Assembly: GCA_029907045.1 (NCBI GenBank)
Contig: JARYMR010000016.1
Span: 1-18,191 of the forward strand
Reading direction: 5' to 3'
Source: Candidatus Bathyarchaeota archaeon
GTDB lineage: Archaea > Thermoproteota > Bathyarchaeia > Bathyarchaeales > UBA233
DNA length: 18,191 nucleotides
Shown here one piece after another: positions 248 to 18,191 of the stretch. The notes beneath the pieces were generated by a model that saw only the letters and a list, made by a program, of their open reading frames with translations, was not told where the DNA came from and ran no database searches. Made by a program: the position numbers and the translations under genes. The stretch's first letter is position 1; each line of letters opens with the position of its first letter.

Positions 248-781
248 TTAACCACGTTTTTGAAGTATGACTTTAGCTGCTTCTAATATTTGTGCGGCTT
301 GTTTCTCTTTCAGCTTATGTCTTCTCTCGCCAAGTTCTTTTATTGCAGCCTCTATATCTGCGAATTTAATGAAATCCTTTCTCAACCCTTCTAGAAGCAC
401 GGTCCAAGTGTTCCACGTTTTAATTCCAAACATTTTTGCCAAGTCAGAGAGCGCCTTATCATCCACTAAAAATTCAGCTTTTCGCTCTTTTGCGAACAGA
501 AGAGTTTCAGCATCTGCCTTAGAAATGTCTTCAGCTTCTGCTAATTTTTTAGAAGCTGAAGCCAACTTCTTTGGAATGTCTTCAACTATTATCCATTTTT
601 TCTCTATGGCTTTTCCTATAATCTGAGCGTCGGGATGACCCAGTTTAACGCCTTCGTCGTAGGTTTCTCTTTTCACATTTGGCGTAATAATCACTTGGTT
701 GAAAAGCTGCTTGAGGAGGTATAGCTTGTTTATTTGGGCTAAATGAATAAGCGGACCAGCATTGGAGATCACAACGGGCAA
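248..781 (-). CDS. PIN-domain protein, toxin-like (DUF3368 type)
   Basis: A 177-aa protein starting at TTG (781) behind a GGAG site located in the end of the preceding gene. It opens with the PIN strand/loop VVISNAGPLIHLAQ, has a glutamate at E39 (NVKRETYDEG), a DAETLLFAKE segment at about 90-99 and FLVDDKALSDLAK at about 105-116. These match the order of acidic sites in PIN ribonucleases of the DUF3368/VapC-like group, which cut RNA as toxins. The first site is Asn7 instead of Asp, which as far as I recall also occurs in other members of this group. It lies 3 nt after the UPF0175 gene, so the two form a likely toxin-antitoxin operon. Toxicity and target are not shown by the sequence. The family call is fairly sure; activity is uncertain. 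Confidence 0.8.
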   Translation of the reverse strand: MPVVISNAGPLIHLAQINKLYLLKQLFNQVIITPNVKRETYDEGVKLGHPDAQIIGKAIEKKWIIVEDIPKKLASASKKLAEAEDISKADAETLLFAKERKAEFLVDDKALSDLAKMFGIKTWNTWTVLLEGLRKDFIKFADIEAAIKELGERRHKLKEKQAAQILEAAKVILQKRG

Positions 782-784
782 GGC

Positions 785-1087
785 TTACTCTCCATACCTC
801 GCCTTCAAATATTCTTTTATACTCTCAGAATCCCAGTTAACTGGAACATCTTCCCTCTCTAACAATTCAAGAAATTCACGTAAACGAATGCCCAATATTT
901 CTGCCGAGCGTCTCGCAGTCAACTTACCCCTCTGATAGAGATGTACAACCCTTCTTTGAAGTCCATCCTCAATAAACTCCTTAATTAATGTGGAGCGGTC
1001 AACATTTTCCAGAACTCTCACGGCTTCAACTCTTTCCAAGTCCCGCCTTGACAGTCGCACAGTAACCACAGCGCTTTTCTCAACCAT
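785..1087 (-). CDS. UPF0175 family antitoxin-like DNA-binding protein
   Basis: I place the start at ATG 1087 (100 aa). It has AGGATG just upstream, and the TATA-like element at 1117-1127 lies at the right distance. A longer reading from TTG 1114 would start almost inside that TATA box. Residues 5-45 (VVTVRLSRRDLERVEAV...STLIKEFIEDGL) look like a ribbon-helix-helix DNA-binding fold. Residues 48-98 (VVHLYQRGKLTARRSAEILGIRLREF...) are the UPF0175 signature, which is typically found beside PIN/DUF3368 toxins. The protein probably neutralises the downstream PIN protein and represses its own promoter (inference from family behaviour). The operon contains just these two genes. Confidence 0.82.
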   Translation of the reverse strand: MVEKSAVVTVRLSRRDLERVEAVRVLENVDRSTLIKEFIEDGLQRRVVHLYQRGKLTARRSAEILGIRLREFLELLEREDVPVNWDSESIKEYLKARYGE

Positions 1088-1116
1088 TTTCCATCCTAGA
1101 GTAAAAGAATACAATG

Positions 1117-4782: not shown

Positions 4783-7700
4783 ATGGCTGCGGAAGAGGTA
4801 GTTCACAAGATTATAGACGGTGTCCACTTCAGTCTATTCTCACCCCAAGACGTGCGCAAACTCTCGGTTGTTGAAATCCAAACGCCAGACACTTATGATG
4901 AGGACGGCGCCCCAATCACAGCGGGACTCATGGATGGTAGGCTGGGAACCCTTGAACCCCGACAAAGATGCAAAACATGTGGAAACACGGCAATCCGCTG
5001 TCCAGGACATTTCGGTCATATTGAGCTTGCGGTTCCAATAATTCACATTGAATTTACAAAACTAATCTATGAACTTTTGAAATCCACATGCAGAAATTGT
5101 GGGCGCATTTTGCTTCCAGACGAAACTATAAATCGGGCTCGAGCCAGAATTGAGAAGACCCGTCAACTTTTAGGTCTGGTTCCAGACGAAGTTTACAAGT
5201 CCATCACACAGGAAATAAAAGCGAAACAGTGTCCCCACTGTGGAGCTGTTCAATATAAAATAGTTTTTGAAAAGCCGACTAAATTCAGTGAGCAAATTCC
5301 CGAAAGCGGTTCAGAACCATTAACACCAAATATGATTAGGGAAAGGATGGAACGCATACCCGACGAAGACCTTGAAATTTTAGGTTTCAATCCAAAAGCT
5401 GCCCGTCCAGAATGGATGGTTCTTCAAGTTTTGCCCGTGCCACCCGTTTATGTTCGTCCATCCATAACGCTGGAGTCAGGCATTCGTTCAGAGGATGATT
5501 TAACCCATAAGCTTGTGGACATAATCCGCATAAATCAGCGGCTAAAGGAGAATATGGATGCTGGAGCCCCAACCCTCATAATTCAAGACTTGTCAGAGCT
5601 TCTACAATATCATGTGACAACATACTTTAACAATGAAGCTTCGGGGATTCCGCCAGCAAGGCATCGCTCTGGAAGGGCATTAAAAACGCTATCGCAAAGG
5701 CTTAAGGGAAAGGAAGGCAGATTCAGAAGCAACCTCTCTGGAAAACGGGTTGACTTTTCAGCCCGAACAGTTGTTTCTCCAGACCCAAACCTTGACATAA
5801 GCGAGGTTGGCGTTCCCATAGAAGTTGCTATGCGCCTATCCGTGCCAGAAAAAGTTACCGAGTGGAACCTTGAAGAGATGCGGCAACTCGTCAAAAATGG
5901 ACCTGAAAAATATCCAGGCGCCCTCTACATTATAAGACCTGATGGCAAACGCATAAGACTTGAATTTGTTACTGATAGGGAAAAGATTGCCGAGGCTTTA
6001 ATGCCTGGATTTATTGTTGAAAGGCACCTCAAAAATGGTGACATCGCCATATTTAACCGTCAACCTTCCCTTCATCGCATGTCAATAATGGCTCACGGCG
6101 TCCGCGTCTTGCCATACAAAACTTTCCGCTTGCACTTGTGTGTTTGTCCACCTTACAATGCGGATTTTGATGGAGACGAAATGAATCTTCACATACCCCA
6201 AAGCGAAGAAGCCAGAACAGAAGCGCTTCTGCTAATGCAAGTTCAAGACCAAATTCTTTCGCCAAGGTTTGGAGGTCCAATAATAGGAGCCATCCGCGAC
6301 TTCATAACAGCCGCATATCTCTTCACAAGAAAAACCAACTACCTAACAAAAGAAGAAGTAAGCAGACTACTCATTGCAGCCTGTTATGAGGGACCTCTGC
6401 CAGAGCCTAAAATTAAGGAGCCTCAGCCTTTATGGAGTGGCAAACAAATTTTCAGCCTCTTTTTGCCAAAGGATATGAATTATGTTTTGAAGGCAAACAT
6501 TTGCCAAGGCTGTGCAAAATGTGAAGAGGAAAAATGCAAATTTGATGCTTATGTTGTTGTTAAGAATGGTGAGCTTATAAGCGGCGTCATAGACAGGCGT
6601 TCCATAGGCGCTGAACAATCAGAAAGCCTCCTACACAGAATAATAAAGGATTATGGAACCCAAGCTGGACGAGAATTCCTAAACAAGATAACAAGATTGT
6701 TGAAGCTTTTCATTACAATGCGAGGCTTCACATACTCCTACGATGAGCTTGTTTTATCTTCCAAAGCTGAAAGCAGAATAAACAAAACTATGGAGAAAGT
6801 TGAAAAAAGAGTTGAGGAGCTTATAGAAAGTTATCGTAAAGGCACATTGCCGAGGCTTCCAGGACAGACCCTAGAAGATTCTTTTGAAATTTATGTAATG
6901 AATGAACTTGCCAAAGCCAGAGATGATGCTGGAAAAATTGCTGACGAAGATTTCACAATAGAAAATGCTGGCATAGTCATGACAAGGACAGGCGCGAGGG
7001 GTTCAAGCCTAAACATTGGACAAATGAGCGCCTGCATTGGACAACAGTCAGTGCGTGGAAAAAGAATACTCCGCGGATATGTTGGCAGAGCGCTTCCTCA
7101 CTTCAAGTCTGGCGACCCAAGCCCAAAAGCAAGGGGATTCGTTTACTCTTCCTATCAAAAAGGATTGGACGCCGTTGAATTTTTCTTCCATGCCATGGGT
7201 GGAAGGGAAGGTTTAGTGGACACAGCCGTTAGAACGCAACAAAGCGGTTACATGCAAAGAAGACTCATCAATGCATTGGAGCACATACGCCTAGAATATG
7301 ACGGAACAGTTAGAAACTCGGCAGGCGACATAATCCAATTTAGATACGGCGAAGACGGCGTTGACCCAGCTAAAAGCGACCATGGAAAAGCTGTTAACGT
7401 AAGCCGCTTGGTTGAGCAGTTCAAAATAGCGGAAGAGAAGGGTAGACCAGCCCCAGCAGACTACATTAAAGAAAAGCTGGAAGAGGTTAAAGACCAGCTT
7501 ACACCCTTGCTGATAGAAGAACTTAAGCAAAGCTTAGCTAAGGCAAAACTAAGCAAGGCAGGCGTTGACAAAGCTATTAAACTAACTGTTGAACATTATA
7601 AGCGTGCCCTTATGGAGCCAGGGGAAGCCGTTGGCATAGTCGCAGCCCAATCCATAGGGGAACCAGGCACACAAATGACTCTTAGAACTTTCCATTATGC

Positions 7701-8604
7701 TGGTGTTAGAGAGCAAAACGTAACCTTAGGCTTGCCGAGGCTTATAGAAATTGTTGATGCGAGGAGAATTCCTTCAACGCCAATAATGACCATCTACCTA
7801 ACTGGAGAACACAAGAAAAGCAGAGAAGCAGCAGTAAAAATTGCGCGTAACATATATTACACAACACTGGAGGATTTGGCTGAAACCGTTTACGAAGACC
7901 CCGTGCATGAGGAAATAGTTGTGGAGCTTAACAAGGCAATGATGGAAGATAGGGGTGTTTCGCTTCAAGAGTTGAAGGAAAAACTACAGATACAAAACTG
8001 CACCATAAAAATAAGGGGCAACAGAATACATATAAAGCCCAAAAAGGCTGAAGCCCTCAAGAAACTGTTAGATAAAGTTTCATCCTTCTATATTAAAGGG
8101 GTTCCAGGCATAAAGAGAGTTTTAGTTACGGAAGAACATGGAGAATGGGTTATAAGAACTGACGGTTCAAATCTACCCAAAGTTTTAGAAGTTTACGGAG
8201 TAGACACGTCGAGAACAACAACAAACAATGTTCATGAAATAGCCAAAACCTTGGGAATAGAAGCCGCCAGAAACGCCCTAATTCACGAGTCAAAGGGCGT
8301 TTTGGAGGATCAAGGGTTGGATGTTGACATTCGCCATGTCATGCTTGTTGCTGACATGATGACATCCACTGGCGAGGTACAACAGATAGGGCGTCATGGC
8401 ATAAGCGGCAAAAAATCAAGTGTTCTGGCTAGGGCTGCCTTCGAAATTACCGTTCCAAACATTGTTGATGCCGCCGTAAAAGGTGAAAGTGACCCCTTAG
8501 AAGGCGTAACCGAAAACGTTATTGTTGGGCAATCCATACCCATAGGCACGGGACTTGTTGAATTATTCATGTCAACAGTGGACTTGGGAAGGGAGAACAA
8601 ATGA
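4783..8604 (+). CDS. rpoA: DNA-directed RNA polymerase subunit A, fused A'/A''
   Basis: A 1273-aa protein joining what most archaea encode as rpoA1 and rpoA2. The A' part has N-terminal zinc ligands C63, C66, C73 and H76 (CPGHFGH), a second cysteine set C103/C106 and C150/C153, and the catalytic Mg-binding loop NADFDGDEMN (D461, D463, D465). The bridge-helix region is FFFHAMGGREGLVDTAVRTQQSGY. The A'' part carries PGEAVGIVAAQSIGEPGTQ and MTLRTFHYAG (about 946-971, trigger-loop region) and ends in the jaw/clamp region. The A'/A'' join falls roughly at residues 870-900, where no stop or start signal is present. A cysteine cluster C574/C577/C580/C585 may bind an extra metal. It starts 1 nt after rpoB with GGAG upstream, and its stop overlaps rpl30e (ATGA). 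Confidence 0.97.
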   Translation: MAAEEVVHKIIDGVHFSLFSPQDVRKLSVVEIQTPDTYDEDGAPITAGLMDGRLGTLEPRQRCKTCGNTAIRCPGHFGHIELAVPIIHIEFTKLIYELLKSTCRNCGRILLPDETINRARARIEKTRQLLGLVPDEVYKSITQEIKAKQCPHCGAVQYKIVFEKPTKFSEQIPESGSEPLTPNMIRERMERIPDEDLEILGFNPKAARPEWMVLQVLPVPPVYVRPSITLESGIRSEDDLTHKLVDIIRINQRLKENMDAGAPTLIIQDLSELLQYHVTTYFNNEASGIPPARHRSGRALKTLSQRLKGKEGRFRSNLSGKRVDFSARTVVSPDPNLDISEVGVPIEVAMRLSVPEKVTEWNLEEMRQLVKNGPEKYPGALYIIRPDGKRIRLEFVTDREKIAEALMPGFIVERHLKNGDIAIFNRQPSLHRMSIMAHGVRVLPYKTFRLHLCVCPPYNADFDGDEMNLHIPQSEEARTEALLLMQVQDQILSPRFGGPIIGAIRDFITAAYLFTRKTNYLTKEEVSRLLIAACYEGPLPEPKIKEPQPLWSGKQIFSLFLPKDMNYVLKANICQGCAKCEEEKCKFDAYVVVKNGELISGVIDRRSIGAEQSESLLHRIIKDYGTQAGREFLNKITRLLKLFITMRGFTYSYDELVLSSKAESRINKTMEKVEKRVEELIESYRKGTLPRLPGQTLEDSFEIYVMNELAKARDDAGKIADEDFTIENAGIVMTRTGARGSSLNIGQMSACIGQQSVRGKRILRGYVGRALPHFKSGDPSPKARGFVYSSYQKGLDAVEFFFHAMGGREGLVDTAVRTQQSGYMQRRLINALEHIRLEYDGTVRNSAGDIIQFRYGEDGVDPAKSDHGKAVNVSRLVEQFKIAEEKGRPAPADYIKEKLEEVKDQLTPLLIEELKQSLAKAKLSKAGVDKAIKLTVEHYKRALMEPGEAVGIVAAQSIGEPGTQMTLRTFHYAGVREQNVTLGLPRLIEIVDARRIPSTPIMTIYLTGEHKKSREAAVKIARNIYYTTLEDLAETVYEDPVHEEIVVELNKAMMEDRGVSLQELKEKLQIQNCTIKIRGNRIHIKPKKAEALKKLLDKVSSFYIKGVPGIKRVLVTEEHGEWVIRTDGSNLPKVLEVYGVDTSRTTTNNVHEIAKTLGIEAARNALIHESKGVLEDQGLDVDIRHVMLVADMMTSTGEVQQIGRHGISGKKSSVLARAAFEITVPNIVDAAVKGESDPLEGVTENVIVGQSIPIGTGLVELFMSTVDLGRENK

Positions 8605-9854: not shown

Positions 9855-10409
9855 CTATTTTGACAAAAGCATGTCTATAAGCGCTTTTTGGTCTATTTCT
9901 GCACGTGTTCTCCAATCCAAATATAACTGCTCATTCTCGTCTTGCGTTAAGTATCCATAGCGAATGTAACGGTCAATGTTTAAGCCCACCTTCCATCCAG
10001 GAAGCTTATCCCGCAATAATTCCTCAACTTCTTTTCGCGGCACTTTGCCCCTTTTTGATATTATGTATGCGATTGTTATGGCTAACCCTGCCAAATCGTC
10101 TATGCGCCATCCTATCATTTTAGCTTCTTTTGGCGTTAAATCGCCCCTTAACGTGATGTAGAATCTTGCCTTATCCAAATCCTCCAAAGTTGGCTTTTCC
10201 ACAGCCTTCTCCTCTTCGAAAACTGTTTTAACCTGTAAATCCAAAGTCTTCAAATAATCGTCCAAAATTTTCAAGACTTTTGGATAGTCCGAGCCTAAGG
10301 CTTTGCGTAGTTCCCAACCCTTCACTCCTGGCTTTTTATGCCTTCTATAAAAGAGCATGTGGACTGCCCGTTTCATTTTGCTTGCATAATAGCCCTTTCG
10401 CTTACTCAT
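9855..10409 (-). CDS. Tandem winged-helix KITE/MAGE (Nse3)-like subunit
   Basis: 184 aa from ATG 10409, which overlaps the upstream stop as ATGA and has GGGAGAG 6 nt before it; a start 7 codons earlier is possible but less well placed. The N-terminal half (about 11-88: KMKRAVHMLFYRRHKKPGVK, then LRKALGSDYPKVLKILDDYL and an FYITL strand) and the C-terminal half (about 105-170) each read as a winged helix. The second half has ITIAYIISKRGKVPRKEVEELL, an IRYGYLTQDENEQLYL wing and DWRTRAEID (W166, R169, A170), much like the second winged helix of MAGE/Nse3 proteins, where WGPRA is conserved. KITE proteins bind the kleisin of SMC complexes. This one is last in an operon with an SMC-like ATPase and a kleisin-like gene. 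The fold assignment is inference from pattern; alternatives are ScpB-like or an unrelated DNA-binding protein. Confidence 0.65.
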   Translation of the reverse strand: MSKRKGYYASKMKRAVHMLFYRRHKKPGVKGWELRKALGSDYPKVLKILDDYLKTLDLQVKTVFEEEKAVEKPTLEDLDKARFYITLRGDLTPKEAKMIGWRIDDLAGLAITIAYIISKRGKVPRKEVEELLRDKLPGWKVGLNIDRYIRYGYLTQDENEQLYLDWRTRAEIDQKALIDMLLSK

Positions 10410-11224
10410 TTCAACTCTCCCTTCTTCCATCTCATCCAGTCTTCTGGCGAAACAGTTATGGGTATGGAAACTAACTGCCTTTTCCCAATTTTTGTTATTG
10501 GTTTTTCGTTTGGTTTGATGAAAATTTCTTCTTCTAATGGGTGAATTTCTAACGTGGCGTATCCATATGTGACTAGAAAGCTTGTTAAAAAGGCTCTTTG
10601 CACTGTTTCCTCGTAGGTTTCTGCGCCAACAAAATCCCAGTAATGAATTTTTTCTTTTTCTCCAACTTTCGCCTTCAGTTCTTGCCAGAAATTTTCAAGC
10701 TCTTCAGAAAAGGCTTTATCCCGCAAAATTCTCTGCCTAATGAGTTCTTCTCTTGTTGCTAGGCTTGTTGCGACTTCTGCTGGCGGAAAACCCTTCCACC
10801 TTTCTTTTAACGGCAGGAGGCTTTCCCAGTATCTTGTGGCTTCTGCCAAACTGTGAAGCGAAATTTGCTCCATCTCCACTGTTGGATGCCAAGCTTGGAG
10901 GAAGGCTTCAACAATTTCTTCCTTATCTATGCGTGTAAGCTTCTCTTCTAATAGGAATGGGTCTGTGTATAGGGATGTGGACCGATGCTTAACCCATTCG
11001 CTTTGAAGTTTTATAACCGAAGCCAAATGCTGGATTGTTTCAGCGTCTAGGCATAGGTCTTCTGGAATTTCCCATTCTGGAAAATACTCTTTAACTATGC
11101 TTATGATTTCTTCAACATTTATTAGAAACGGGTCTAATGAGCGCTCTTCCACAGACTTGCACATTTCTATTATACGTTGAAGCTTTTCCCTTCCAATTTT
11201 CGCCCGCTCTCTTTTTGACTGCAT
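10406..11224 (-). CDS. Kleisin-like (ScpA/Nse4-like) SMC partner
   Basis: A 272-aa protein. ATG 11224 overlaps the SMC-like stop by one base (TAATG), so translation is coupled. Residues 29-80 (SLDPFLINVEEIISIVKEYF, then LDAETIQHLASVIKLQSEWV) resemble the ScpA pattern in which a DP-x-D-I segment is followed by a helix ending in LxxKSE. The middle (about 95-190) is helical and charged. The C-terminal 60 residues (ETVQRAFLTSFLVTYGYATL, EEEIFIKP, RQLVSIPITV, SPEDWMRW) look like a small winged helix, as expected for the kleisin end that caps an SMC head. Sequence similarity to known kleisins is weak by eye; the call rests on this pattern plus its position between an SMC-like ATPase and a KITE-like gene. 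Confidence 0.6.
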   Translation of the reverse strand: MQSKRERAKIGREKLQRIIEMCKSVEERSLDPFLINVEEIISIVKEYFPEWEIPEDLCLDAETIQHLASVIKLQSEWVKHRSTSLYTDPFLLEEKLTRIDKEEIVEAFLQAWHPTVEMEQISLHSLAEATRYWESLLPLKERWKGFPPAEVATSLATREELIRQRILRDKAFSEELENFWQELKAKVGEKEKIHYWDFVGAETYEETVQRAFLTSFLVTYGYATLEIHPLEEEIFIKPNEKPITKIGKRQLVSIPITVSPEDWMRWKKGELK

Positions 11225-13173
11225 TAGGCGACCTCTCTGATTATAGATTTCCCTTCAATGTTTTGAACCGTTATTATGTTTGCTTCTTCTTTTGCGAACG
11301 TCACTTGGCTTGGCGTTATAACGATGTATTGAGCTTTTGCATCCTTAACGGTTGAAATTAGTATTTTTGCAATTATTTCACGGTTCTTTGGGTCCATGTG
11401 AATATCATACTCGTCCACGGCTCTGAATGGCGAACGAACATGCTGTTGTAAAGCCAACAAAAAGCTCATGGTTGCCGTTGTTCTTTCTCCACCACTCTGC
11501 GTATAAGCATCCAAAGGAACGGGTTTTCCACCCTTAAAACCAACATCAATCTCCAGCCCCGCGGCCTCAATGTCATGTCCATTAACAAGCTTAACCTCGC
11601 CCACGGCTTGGGCTTGAGCCAAAATCTTCTGATATTCCAAGTTTACGCGGTCTAGGAGGCTTTGGATAACTGTTCGCCAATTCTGCATTCGCACTTTAAC
11701 CTCTTCTAAAGCCTTCTCTCGGTTTTCGGCAACTTGCTGCGCCTTCTCCTTCAACTCTAAATAAAGTTTCGAATAGGATTCATACATGCGTTCTATGTCC
11801 TCTGAAACATCAGCAAGCGCTGCCAAATGTCCATCCGTAACACGAAGCTCATCCAAGATTTCGCCAATATTCTTTACAACCGCAATTCTAGGTCCAGTTT
11901 GGTCAGCCTTCGCTAAAGCCTCATTCAAATTTACCTTTGCACTTTTGAGCTCACTTTCGAGTCTTTCCAATTCGGCTTTTAGGTTTTCTTGGCGATATTG
12001 CAGCAAAGCCAATTGAATGCGGCTGTCTACAACTCTGTTGTTTATCTTATCCATGTTTTCTTCCAAAATCTTAGTTCGATTTTGGTTTTCATCAATTTCT
12101 TTATTTAACTTTGAAATCTGCAGGCTAGAATTTTGCAAAAGTTCTTTCAAGTTTTCACTTTTTAGAAGCTTAAACTGCGCTTGGTTTTCTCTGATTGATA
12201 CGCTTGTTTGGGTTGACGGGTTTCCTTTCTCAAGCATTTCTGCCTCTTTCAGGAGTTGCTCACAAAATGAGATGGTTGCCTCGTTTCTTGCTTTTTCCCT
12301 TTCAAGGCTTAAGCGTTCAGTGAAAAAGTTTTTCATTTCACTTTTTAGCTTTTCAAGTTCGCCCTGTTGAGTCTGCAGTTGTTCTTTGGCTATTTTTGTT
12401 TCTTCTTCAATTTGATTTAAAGCATCCAATTCCCTTTTCCTTTCAGCCTCTAAACTTTTAACAAGTTCTTCCCTTTTTGAAACCTCAGCCCAAGCAAGTT
12501 CCCTCTCCAAAAATCTCCTCTTAGTCTGAAGTTGCTTCTTCGCTTGATATCTCTCGTACTGTTCTCTCCAATAATTAAGCGTCTGCTCAGCAGACTCCAA
12601 AAGCTTGTTTATAGAATCTTCTTGGCTTAATATGCGCGTTAACTTTTTCTGAGCTTCCAAAACGTTTTGGCGGTACGGTTCCAATCCCACAGCAGCCTCA
12701 ACCATGCGCAGTTTTTCCTGCTGAGAAAGCACGGTGAACTGTTCAACCATGTTTTGATGCATTATTACGAGCATGTTTTCTGGGTCAACACCCAACTTGG
12801 ACAATAGTCTTTCCACATCAGTTTTTGTGGCAGCCCTATTCTCCAATTCAAACCAGTATTTGCCATCTCTGCGCAAAACTCGGGTTAGGAAAATCTGGTC
12901 CTTATTAAACTTGGGAACTGGGCGTCTTCCACCTCTCTTCCTATTATCTAAAATGAGCGTAACACGGGCTTGGTCCTTGCCCCAACGAATTAAATCGCTC
13001 AATTTTCTTGAACGTTCAGTATAAGATTGTCCAAGGGCTACTGAAATGGCTAACAAAAGCGAAGACTTTCCAGAGCCGTTCGGTCCACAAATTACGTTTA
13101 CGCCAGATTTAAAGGGTACCCTAGCATACTCGTAACTCATGAAGTTTTCAAGGATTACTTCGCTAATCAGCAT
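11224..13173 (-). CDS. Short hinge-less SMC-like ATPase (Smc5/6-like motifs)
   Basis: A 649-aa protein; canonical SMCs are about 1150-1200. Head motifs in order: Walker A GPNGSGKSS (30-38), an SMC-type SDLIRWGKDQARVTLIL segment (59-75), Q-loop Q140 in VIMHQNMVEQF, ABC signature QSGGERTTATMSF (559-571) and Walker B FRAVDEYDIHMDPKNRE (583-599) with D587 and E588. The PFR-x-x-DE-x-D-x-x-MD wording is that of Smc5/Smc6 rather than bacterial Smc or condensin. Between the head halves lie coiled coils at about 165-315 and 333-420, joined by only a short polar turn (GNPSTQTSV, 318-326). There is no room for a globular hinge and no CxxC zinc hook (only Cys29 and Cys304 in the whole protein), which argues against Rad50. 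It is probably a DNA-organising or repair ATPase, first gene of an operon with kleisin- and KITE-like genes. Crenarchaeal coalescin-like SMC relatives are an alternative family assignment. Confidence 0.85.
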   Translation of the reverse strand: MLISEVILENFMSYEYARVPFKSGVNVICGPNGSGKSSLLLAISVALGQSYTERSRKLSDLIRWGKDQARVTLILDNRKRGGRRPVPKFNKDQIFLTRVLRRDGKYWFELENRAATKTDVERLLSKLGVDPENMLVIMHQNMVEQFTVLSQQEKLRMVEAAVGLEPYRQNVLEAQKKLTRILSQEDSINKLLESAEQTLNYWREQYERYQAKKQLQTKRRFLERELAWAEVSKREELVKSLEAERKRELDALNQIEEETKIAKEQLQTQQGELEKLKSEMKNFFTERLSLEREKARNEATISFCEQLLKEAEMLEKGNPSTQTSVSIRENQAQFKLLKSENLKELLQNSSLQISKLNKEIDENQNRTKILEENMDKINNRVVDSRIQLALLQYRQENLKAELERLESELKSAKVNLNEALAKADQTGPRIAVVKNIGEILDELRVTDGHLAALADVSEDIERMYESYSKLYLELKEKAQQVAENREKALEEVKVRMQNWRTVIQSLLDRVNLEYQKILAQAQAVGEVKLVNGHDIEAAGLEIDVGFKGGKPVPLDAYTQSGGERTTATMSFLLALQQHVRSPFRAVDEYDIHMDPKNREIIAKILISTVKDAKAQYIVITPSQVTFAKEEANIITVQNIEGKSIIREVA

Positions 13174-15367: not shown

Positions 15368-15898
15368 CTAGTATTCTATTCCCTTTCTTGCTTGGAAACC
15401 CTTATTGTATGGATGCTTAATCTCCCTCATTTCTGTGACTAAATCCGCTGCCTCAACTATTTCATTCGGTGCATACCGCCCAGTCAAAACAAGCTCAACA
15501 TGTTTAGGCTTATTCTTTATCAACTCTACAACCCTTTCAGTCTTTATTAGTTTCAAGTTTAGAGCTACATTAATTTCGTCTAGGATTACTATGTCATATT
15601 CTCCGCTTTTGACGGTTTCTTCAGCCAATGTTAAGGCTTCTTCTGCAAGTTTGATATCCTCTTGGCTTGGTGGCTTTTCTGTTACAAATTTGCCTCTTCC
15701 AAAAGCCTTCAATTTTAAGTTTGGAAGCTTATCTACAATGTATAGTTCGCCGTAATCGAATCCGCCTTTAATGAACTGAATTATGTAAACTTTTAATCCT
15801 CTACCTGTTGCTCTTAGGGCTAGCCCAAAGGCTGCTGAGGTTTTGCCCTTCCCATTTCCAGTATAAACCTGAACCATTCCCTTTTCAAGTTTTGGCAT
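15368..15898 (-). CDS. cobO: Cob(I)alamin/corrinoid adenosyltransferase, CobO/BtuR family
   Basis: A 176-aa protein, the normal size for this family. It moves the adenosyl group of ATP to the cobalt of a reduced corrinoid, making adenosylcobalamin. The N-terminal nucleotide loop is GNGKGKTS (14-21). ILDEIN (105-110) is the acidic core motif, and VLTGRYAP then HPYNKGFQARKGIEY at the end are signature parts of CobO/CobA/BtuR. ATG 15898 shares a base with the meaB stop (TAATG), so it is the last gene of the mutase operon. Its place suggests that it supplies the coenzyme for the mutase encoded upstream. Confidence 0.93.
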   Translation of the reverse strand: MPKLEKGMVQVYTGNGKGKTSAAFGLALRATGRGLKVYIIQFIKGGFDYGELYIVDKLPNLKLKAFGRGKFVTEKPPSQEDIKLAEEALTLAEETVKSGEYDIVILDEINVALNLKLIKTERVVELIKNKPKHVELVLTGRYAPNEIVEAADLVTEMREIKHPYNKGFQARKGIEY

Positions 15899-16854
15899 TA
15901 TTTTGCCTTCTTAAATTTTGAATGCAAAAGTTCTTCAGCCGCTGAAGCTGGGTCTATTTCTTTAGCCATAATTTTTTGGAGGGTTTCTTGGAATTTTCCT
16001 TCCATTTTCAACTCCTCTATTATGGAATTTACTGTTCTTTCTTTTATGGCTTCGACAAGTTCAGTTTCCGCCCTTAGAAGACTTCTTTCTTCCACTTTTT
16101 CCTTTTTCAGAAAGGTTTTATGCTCCTCCAATTTTTCGATGAGTTGAGGAACGCCCTCACCTGTGAGGGCTATTGTTTTTAGAACTGGTGGTTTCCACGC
16201 TTTTTCTTTAGTGTTTAATTGTAGCATGGCTTGTATGTCTGTTACGGCTTTTTCTACGTTTTCGCGGTCTGCCTTGTTCACAACGAAGATGTCAGCTATC
16301 TCCATCAAACCAGCTTTTATAGCTTGAATATCGTCGCCCAAGCCAGGCGCGTGAATAACAACTATTGTTTCCGCGACTTTGATGATTTCCACTTCTGATT
16401 GTCCCGCACCAACGGTTTCAACAATCACTATGTCTTTGCCTGCTGCGTCCAAAATTTTGACGGTATCCCTTGTTGCTTTTGCTATTCCGCCTGGATAGTT
16501 ACGGGTCGCCATGCTCCTTATGAAGACGCCTTCGTCTGTGCTTAATTCTTGCATTCTTATTCTGTCGCCTAAGAAGGCTCCACCAGTGAAGGGGCTTGTG
16601 GGGTCTACGGCTACAACGCCAACACGTTTACCCCTTCGCCTATACTCCCTAACAATCTTTTCGATTAGGGTGCTTTTTCCAGAACCACCAGGACCAGTCA
16701 AACCTATAATATGAGCTTTTCCAGTGTGGGGATAAATTTTTGATATAAGCGTTTTTGCTTCTGGGACGTCATTTTCTATTATTGTTATTGCCTTTGCTAT
16801 GCTCCTGCGGTCTCCGGCTAGAACGCCTTGGGCTATTTCTTCAATTTTTGACAA
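15898..16854 (-). CDS. meaB: MeaB/ArgK family GTPase, mutase chaperone
   Basis: A 318-aa G3E GTPase. The P-loop is GPGGSGKST (54-62), followed by VVAVDPTSPFTGGAFLGDRIRM (81-101), the switch region ETVGAGQSE (146-154) and base-recognition NKAD (193-196), all as in MeaB. MeaB gates cofactor delivery to methylmalonyl-CoA mutase and protects or reactivates it; the older name ArgK (arginine transport kinase) is misleading. The start is TTG 16854, with AGGA only a few bases upstream, an awkwardly short spacing. It begins 14 nt after the B12-binding subunit gene ends, and cobO overlaps its stop. Confidence 0.95.
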   Translation of the reverse strand: MSKIEEIAQGVLAGDRRSIAKAITIIENDVPEAKTLISKIYPHTGKAHIIGLTGPGGSGKSTLIEKIVREYRRRGKRVGVVAVDPTSPFTGGAFLGDRIRMQELSTDEGVFIRSMATRNYPGGIAKATRDTVKILDAAGKDIVIVETVGAGQSEVEIIKVAETIVVIHAPGLGDDIQAIKAGLMEIADIFVVNKADRENVEKAVTDIQAMLQLNTKEKAWKPPVLKTIALTGEGVPQLIEKLEEHKTFLKKEKVEERSLLRAETELVEAIKERTVNSIIEELKMEGKFQETLQKIMAKEIDPASAAEELLHSKFKKAK

Positions 16855-16868
16855 TTTCCTTGCACATC

Positions 16869-17276
16869 TTAAGCTCTTTTAGGCGCGTTTTGCAAAACGA
16901 ACTCTATTATCTTTTCCGTTGGGGTTCCAGGTCCAAATATTTCTTTTATTCCCAACTTTTTCATTTCTGGAACGTCTTCGTCTGGGATTATTCCTCCAGC
17001 GAAAACCATGACGTCTGTTAATCCTTTCTCTTTAAGAAGTTCCATAATTCTTGGGAAGAGGGCTTTGTGGGCTCCTGAAAGGATGCTTAAACCTATTACA
17101 TCTACATCTTCTTGGAGGGCTGTTTCAACAATTTGTTCTGGCGTCTGCCTCAAACCCGTGTAGATTACTTCCATCCCAGCATCTCTTAGGGCTCTTGCAA
17201 CCACTTTGGCTCCTCTGTCGTGACTGTCTAAGCCTGGTTTTGCGATTAATACTCTAATTTTTCTTTTGCTCTGCAT
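16869..17276 (-). CDS. mcmA2: Methylmalonyl-CoA mutase-type B12-binding subunit
   Basis: A 135-aa protein consisting of just the cobalamin-binding Rossmann domain. It has the base-off/His-on motif DSHDRG (D17, H19, G22), where H19 ligates cobalt, then the GLSILSGAH segment (62-70) and [10 protein letters not shown] (92-101), which line the cofactor. This is the small subunit of the split mutases typical of archaea. ATG 17276 is preceded by GGGGT. It follows the large-subunit gene by 14 nt and precedes meaB by 14 nt. Confidence 0.94.
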
Positions 17277-17290
17277 ATTCTTACCCCTTT

Positions 17291-18191
17291 TTAGATTACT
17301 ATTAATTCTTTATATTCTCCGTAAACTTTTCGCAGCACATCCGTTATTTCGCCAAGCGTTGCATAAGCTTTTACTGCTTCGATTATTGTTGGCATGAGGT
17401 TTTCTTCTTTTTCTGCTGCGTAATGGAGTTTTTCGAGGATTTCCTTCACCTTCCTGTTGTCGCGTTCTCTCCTTAATTTTTGAAGTCTTTCGACTTGTTC
17501 TTTTTCAACTTTTGGGTCTATCCTTAAAAGTTCTATTGGACATTCTTCCTCTTCTATGGCGAATTCGTTTACGCCAACAATTATGCGCTTTTTCTCTTCA
17601 ACCTCTCGCTGATATCTGTAGGCGCTTTCAGCAATTTTTTTTTGGAAGAATCCTTTTTCTATGGCGGCTACGACTCCGCCCATGTCGTCTATTTTTTGTA
17701 TGTATTCCATGGCTTTTCCTTCCATCTCTTTTGTTAAGGCTTCAACATAATATGAGCCTCCTAAGGGGTCAACGGTGTTTGTTACTCCGCTTTCATAGGC
17801 TATTATCTGTTGGGTTCTTAGGGCTACGCGAACAGCCTCTTCGGTTGGCAAGCATAAGGCTTCGTCAAAGGAGTTTGTGTGTAAGGATTGGGTTCCGCCC
17901 AGCACAGCGGCTAAGGCTTGGATTGTTGTGCGTACAATGTTGTTTAATGGTTGTTGGGCTGTGAGGGTGCAGCCAGATGTCTGAACGTGCATGCGCATCC
18001 ACATGGACCTTGGATTTTTGGCGTGGAAGCGTTCCTTCATTATCCTAGCCCATAAGCGTCTTGCGGCTCTAAACTTGGCTATTTCTTCAAAGAAGTCGTT
18101 GTGGCACGCAAAGAAGAAGGATACTCTCGGAGCGAAACTGTCAATGGGAAGTCCCCTTTCAACAGCGGCGTCCACGTAGGCGATACCGTTC
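17291..18191 (-). CDS. mcmA1: Methylmalonyl-CoA mutase-type large subunit (partial)
   Basis: The C-terminal 300 or so residues of the large (TIM-barrel) subunit. The reading frame is open to the window edge ([20 protein letters not shown]), so the GTG at 18175 is not the start. Family hallmarks are [60 protein letters not shown] and [16 protein letters not shown]. The barrel binds acyl-CoA and, with the B12 subunit, catalyses carbon-skeleton rearrangement, most likely (R)-methylmalonyl-CoA to succinyl-CoA. Residues that separate methylmalonyl- from isobutyryl-type mutases lie outside the window, so the substrate is not settled. Confidence 0.94.

Follow-up and report, generated by a model that had tools for sequence, protein, structure and literature searches.

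The window analyzed here is a stretch of 18,191 nucleotides (nt) from Candidatus Bathyarchaeota archaeon (assembly GCA_029907045.1, contig JARYMR010000016.1, forward strand). At positions 9855-13173 it carries three open reading frames (ORFs) on the minus strand whose ends overlap and which code for 649, 272 and 191 amino acids (aa). These are an SMC ATPase with a Smc5/6-type head, a short coiled coil and no detected hinge domain (11224..13173), a kleisin of the Nse4 type (10406..11224) and a KITE protein (9855..10430), which shortens to 184 aa when started at 10409; all features of these genes given below lie on the minus strand as well. A sequence-only reading of this DNA had likened the set to the subunit logic of Smc5/6, that is, an SMC protein with an Nse4-type kleisin and an Nse1/Nse3-type KITE, and separate sequence and fold tests support this composition. 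The array with overlapping ends that it described is real: within TAATG, the stop codon of the SMC gene and the start codon of the kleisin gene have one base in common. The second joint, ATGA, is present if the KITE protein starts at Met8 (10409); from its first ATG, the ORF overlaps the kleisin gene by 25 nt instead. In a set of 79 relatives, SMC and kleisin are spaced by -1 in 43 cases, and kleisin and KITE by -25 in 40 and by -4 in 13, counts for which the chosen start codons lean on those of the window.

The SMC protein matches Pfam SMC_N with an E-value of 8.3e-36, and the Walker A, QSGGER signature and Walker B motifs reported earlier are all present. Walker A (GPNGSGKSS, residues 30-38, 13060..13086), read directly from the sequence, is invariant at eight of nine positions in an alignment of 45 sequences (A6). 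The signature QSGGER (residues 559-564, 11482..11499) recurs in two aligned Smc5 sequences; among 116 short SMCs related to the window protein, QSGGE was found in 98, HSGGE in 12, LSGGE in four and ESGGE in one, and no signature was found in the last. Walker B reads PFRAVDEYDIHMD (residues 582-594, 11392..11430). Its strict form, PFR-x-V/L-DE, is satisfied by 77 of the 116, and the aligned counterparts are PFRVVDE in Smc5 and PFRCLDEFDVYMD in an SMC6. The window SMC combines QSGGER and PFR-x-VDE, as in Smc5, with EYD-x-HMD, which resembles DEFDVYMD of Smc6.

When the single sequence was searched, an Smc (3.5e-30) and an SMC6 (4.6e-30) came out on top together, followed by another Smc and then Smc5. 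With the A6 profile, built from 45 diverse relatives, the ten best matches in the PDB were all Smc5 or Smc6 (1.5e-68 to 3.2e-55), ahead of Smc (9.3e-54), Smc2 (1.6e-43) and Rad50 (2.2e-13). Since full-length coiled coils can add score, the C-terminal part of the head (C-head) was searched alone. Here, Smc5 was first (1.1e-18), followed by Smc (1.2e-14) and one SMC6 (1.7e-14). In the reverse control, the C-head of a canonical bathyarchaeal Smc found Smc, Smc4, Smc1, Smc3 and Smc2 before Smc5, which was last of 44 (1.2e-11), and no Smc6 was among the matches listed. Ranked by sequence similarity, the SMC head of the window is nearer to Smc5/Smc6 than to the remaining SMCs, with the tie of Smc and one SMC6 in the C-head search noted.

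The SMC protein is short and hingeless, a point that the earlier reading had missed. Leaving two incomplete sequences aside, the short SMCs measure 551-683 aa. The tip of the coiled coil, where the hinge would be expected (residues 276-375, 12049..12348), varies in length and has the lowest conservation and the most gaps of the whole protein, and some relatives have merely a short turn there. SMC_hinge gave no match in the window SMC at E <= 1 and was absent among the matches listed for 45 short SMCs (25 of 87 families). The domain was found in 18 of 30 genomes; the frame that held it always matched the model for canonical Smc as well, and in no case was it the short SMC. A CxxC zinc hook was likewise found in none of the 116 short SMCs within residues 201-480.

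The kleisin is of the Nse4 type, with an Nse4_C winged helix. Nse4_C is the sole Pfam family common to many of its relatives: it was matched by 22 of 48 at E <= 0.1 (best 1e-6), and the next family by two. In a separate run over 21 genomes, 12 of them with a kleisin according to a phylum-wide profile scan, Nse4_C matched the kleisin ORF in 10; one match exceeded the curated cut-off (5.8e-8), and two of 14 control genomes were matched below it. Precomputed PF08743 annotations exist for three of 120 listed relatives. Against the PDB, the kleisin profile found Nse4 (8.5e-5) and EID3 (1.1e-3) before ScpA (6e-3), and a further profile search listed Nse4/EID3, with ScpA absent among the matches listed. 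An AlphaFold2 model (predicted local distance difference test score, pLDDT, 75.6) places three helices (residues 4-28, 37-50 and 54-86) in an N-terminal domain (residues 4-86, 10967..11215) and a winged-helix domain at the C-terminus (residues 171-240, 10505..10714). By analogy with Nse4, the former is a candidate binder of the SMC neck and the latter of the SMC cap. Foldseek ranked two Nse4 chains first and second (best 3.3e-4), before cohesin and ScpA winged helices. The ScpA-like N-terminal pattern noted earlier is seen faintly by sequence (6ivh_A, E 0.12).

The DWRTRA end of the KITE protein, pointed out from the sequence alone, proved to be a conserved feature, as W173 and R174 do not vary across 59 sequences, nor across a second, more diverse set of 47. 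At E <= 0.5, the commonest Pfam families in the latter set were MAGE (18 of 47) and SMC_Nse1 (12 of 47). The best fold match of the predicted model is of the Nse1/Nse3 type, and ScpB and MukE-MukF match too. The KITE protein is therefore of the Nse1/Nse3 (MAGE) type by predicted fold, and its sequence points weakly in the same direction. Both partners of the SMC thus show the expected kleisin and winged-helix folds in predicted models; a lack of these folds was one of the outcomes that the sequence-only reading had named as speaking against itself.

Distribution and surroundings of the operon

When named genomes were scanned for relatives of the SMC protein, 277 candidates emerged, of which 80 loci, mostly titled Bathyarchaeota, were kept. 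One of them, L001, titled Candidatus Bathyarchaeota, encodes an SMC 94% identical to that of the window. The order SMC-kleisin-KITE is preserved in 78 of the 80 loci, which is far beyond chance. Kleisin and KITE adjoin the SMC gene everywhere except in L050, which has neither, and L070, where both follow after 2.5 kb.

In 300 genomes of the same phylum, the kleisin profile matched 127 (E <= 0.01) and the KITE profile 125 (E <= 1e-4), and 124 had both. The kleisin E-values were graded from 3e-142 to 2e-19, save for one stray match (G139), and the named matches take in Thermofilaceae. KITE directly follows kleisin on the same strand in 118 of the 124; in the remaining six, the genes lie on different contigs (two), the first matches are shortened (two) or 1.9 kb separate them (two). 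Within the class, the kleisin profile matched 124 of 151 genomes at 1e-3. Nine of these matched only above 1e-10 and are mostly ScpA, probably, so we used 115 of 151 (E <= 1e-10) as the count. We additionally retrieved 40 divergent loci, with an SMC match in 36 (one a fragment at a contig end), KITE in 38 and all three genes in order in 31; in L103, L104 and L116, the SMC gene is close by on the opposite strand. Kleisin and KITE stay near each other, with SMC away or on the opposite strand, in L089 (5012-8302), L103 (1136-6303) and L111 (5044-6320), and in L089 two ORFs separate kleisin from KITE. These co-occurrence counts, which bear out the proposed association across archaeal genomes, indicate that the gene set travels as a unit through much of the phylum. 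All 125 KITE-positive genomes have one KITE place, which in G075 consists of two neighbouring pieces; a second, different KITE subunit was not found in them, and one too distant for the profile could have escaped.

Many genomes have a separate, canonical Smc-ScpA-ScpB locus in addition to the short-SMC operon, which the earlier reading had missed. In the 30 genomes examined, ScpB (PF04079) exceeded its cut-off in 20, never at the KITE gene, and ScpA was matched in 11 (three over the cut-off), each time adjoining ScpB and a longer Smc. Each of the 30 has one short-type SMC place; several also contain SMC-like ORFs of about 780-910 aa, not all of which have been classified. Nine genomes (G026, G044, G074, G150, G200, G217, G253, G257 and G290) showed no SMC_hinge, no ScpA, no canonical Smc of the longer kind and no ScpB over the cut-off. 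Provided that these nine genomes are complete, the short-SMC system may be their sole SMC complex. The NCBIfam Rad50 model PRK03918 matched one of 20 genomes at the strict threshold of E <= 1e-40. The zf-Nse domain of the SUMO ligase Nse2 was found in none of the 30, and the control genomes gave no match either. It was argued in 2020, in the accessible text of PMC7055376, that archaeal Smc complexes can work without KITE; the operon is an archaeal SMC case that does have one.

The genes flanking the operon are mostly housekeeping ones. One side codes for RNA polymerase subunits, a member of the L7Ae/L30e family and a KH protein of the NusA type. Here the largest polymerase subunit, which is split in two in many archaea, is encoded by one unsplit ORF of 1273 aa (4783-8604, plus strand) with all five Rpb1 domains. 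On the other side lie a small ORF resembling a zinc ribbon, one resembling a nucleotidyltransferase, and a methylmalonyl-CoA mutase cluster, in which a corrinoid adenosyltransferase, a MeaB GTPase, a B12-binding subunit and methylmalonyl-CoA mutase are grouped (15368-18190, minus strand). Elsewhere in the window (248-1114, minus strand), a UPF0175 protein adjoins an ORF of 177 aa with no Pfam match at 1e-5; by their look, the two could be a toxin-antitoxin-like pair.

Kinship with Smc5/6 and competing explanations

Considering the observed gene order, predicted folds, motifs, sequence kinship and distribution, we regard it as probable that all three gene products belong to one complex, and that this archaeal complex is related to the eukaryotic Smc5/6 core and stands apart from canonical Smc-ScpA-ScpB. 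For the SMC head, the kleisin and the KITE protein alike, parts of Smc5/6 (Smc5, Smc6, Nse4, Nse1, Nse3) were the best match found. A tree of the N- and C-heads combined (52 rows, 400 columns), which included four eukaryotic sequences and two Rad50 rows and was built without Smc1-4 and without archaea-specific SMC-related proteins (ASRPs), grouped the short SMCs with Smc5 and Smc6 against canonical Smc and Rad50 (support 96/93). A more widely sampled tree in the accessible text of PMC9389158 contains a clade of SMC5, SMC6 and 'SMC5/6-related' archaeal SMCs with support of 100%/0.99. These archaeal proteins are probably the same family as the short SMCs; that text nowhere mentions a kleisin and describes no missing hinge for this group.

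Several observations weigh against this reading. In approximately unbiased (AU) tests, three contrary groupings stand (p 0.18, 0.19 and 0.20), as does a plain Smc5+Smc6 pair (p 0.37). A tree of the C-head only, which carries a long-branch warning, joins Smc5 to canonical Smc (97/96) and puts Smc6 beside Rad50, and in the C-head search a second Smc6 (7.7e-10) ranks below Smc chains. The missing hinge is itself a difference from Smc5/6. The Nse4_C match of the window kleisin (0.0018) scores 18.9, below the curated cut-off of 26; its model has a predicted template modelling score (pTM) of 0.39, and superposition on whole Nse4 chains gives root-mean-square deviations above 20 A, so the fold evidence for the kleisin holds per domain. 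The window KITE has no Pfam match, KITE profiles found no KITE in the PDB by sequence, and rival winged-helix families reach similar best E-values among its 47 relatives (PaaX 1.8e-4 in three, TrmB 8.9e-4 in six). Finally, in L050 an SMC is present and no partners were found within 4 kb downstream. Of the suggestion that the operon is a relative or forerunner of Smc5/6, similarity and folds uphold the relative; the forerunner is not settled, since the tree of joined heads favours the grouping and the AU tests and C-head tree disagree.

A divergent archaeal Smc-ScpA-ScpB without a special tie to Smc5/6, whose likeness would reflect general SMC-kleisin-KITE homology, is unlikely and yet the best of the alternatives. 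It shares the same subunit logic, ScpA C-domains come next in the PDB after Nse4/EID3 and give fold matches of equal Z, and the KITE model is also matched by ScpB and MukE-MukF. The grouping of Smc5/6 with canonical Smc is the one that stands at p 0.18, and the C-head tree unites Smc5 with canonical Smc. Canonical Smc-ScpA-ScpB, however, has a hinge and an ScpB-type KITE and occupies a locus of its own in many of these genomes; in the 20 with ScpB over the cut-off, it never lies at the KITE gene. Moreover, Smc5/6 parts rank first for the three subunits separately.

That the ATPase is an ASRP (coalescin, Sph) or a Rad50-like protein that recruited kleisin and KITE is highly improbable. ASRPs are archaeal SMC-related ATPases of similarly short length, and the NCBIfam ASRP model does match the window SMC (3.3e-20), but with 72.2 bits against a cut-off of 300, and SMC_prok_A is stronger (1.2e-53, also below its cut-off). 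According to the accessible text of PMC9389158, the vast majority of ASRPs have a zinc hook, unlike the short SMCs. The ATPase did not fall into the Rad50 group either, an outcome also named in advance, as Rad50 chains score far lower than SMCs. Equally hard to credit is an SMC-based defence module of the Lamassu or Wadjet kind in place of chromosome maintenance: PADLOC matches on the SMC (mad3 5.9e-29, LmuB 1.6e-19) were taken as generic ABC-head matches, kleisin and KITE gave none at E <= 0.1, no effector gene was recognised among the neighbours in the window, and a gene set present in 115 of 151 genomes of the class lacks the patchiness of defence genes.

A proposed clamp and what it would mean

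MukBEF and Wadjet (JetABC) count among the closest known systems as well, and the architecture we propose follows Smc5/6. There, as described in the accessible text of PMC7297730, the N-domain of Nse4 sits on the SMC6 neck, its winged helix on the SMC5 head and the KITEs on the linker. The same parts suggest, by analogy, an asymmetric kleisin bridge over an SMC homodimer, acting as an ATP-gated DNA clamp. In such an assembly, the heads of two short hingeless SMCs would be bridged by one Nse4-type kleisin, with the Nse1/Nse3-type KITE, probably as a dimer, on its linker. ATP would join both heads; the winged helix of the kleisin would cap one, and its N-terminal helices would grip the neck of the other. 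Together, kleisin, KITE dimer and heads might enclose DNA in a small clamp, which hydrolysis would open. Short arms without a hinge argue against a large ring, and favour a role as ATP-gated clamp or holder of joint DNA in genome maintenance rather than a long-armed loop extruder.

The operon departs from Smc5/6 in that its genomes each have a single KITE gene and a single SMC gene of the short type, no hinge was found, and the SMC has 551-683 aa compared with about 1,070-1,160 aa in PDB chains. An Smc5/6-like machine may be older than eukaryotes. More tentatively, and just short of favouring it, we suggest an archaeal origin of the whole Smc5/6 core, as a complex without a hinge and with a single gene each for SMC and KITE. 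Eukaryotes would have received it together with an Smc-ScpAB-type complex, and duplications would have given rise to Smc5/Smc6 from the SMC and to Nse1/Nse3 from the KITE. The origin of Smc5/6, and whether among eukaryotic SMC complexes it stands nearest to a common ancestor, are posed as open questions in the accessible text of PMC4989898. In the open-access literature, with bioRxiv and most subscription journals outside its scope, we found no report of kleisin or KITE partner genes for these SMCs in archaea. A three-gene archaeal relative would offer a minimal, expressible version of Smc5/6 and a natural outgroup for its duplications, and it would put to the test the need for a hinge, which is regarded as a defining part of SMC proteins. 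Canonical and Smc5/6-type loci in one archaeal genome would place the split between them before eukaryotes; if the archaeal origin is true, a living archaeal form shows an SMC-kleisin-KITE machine working without a hinge.

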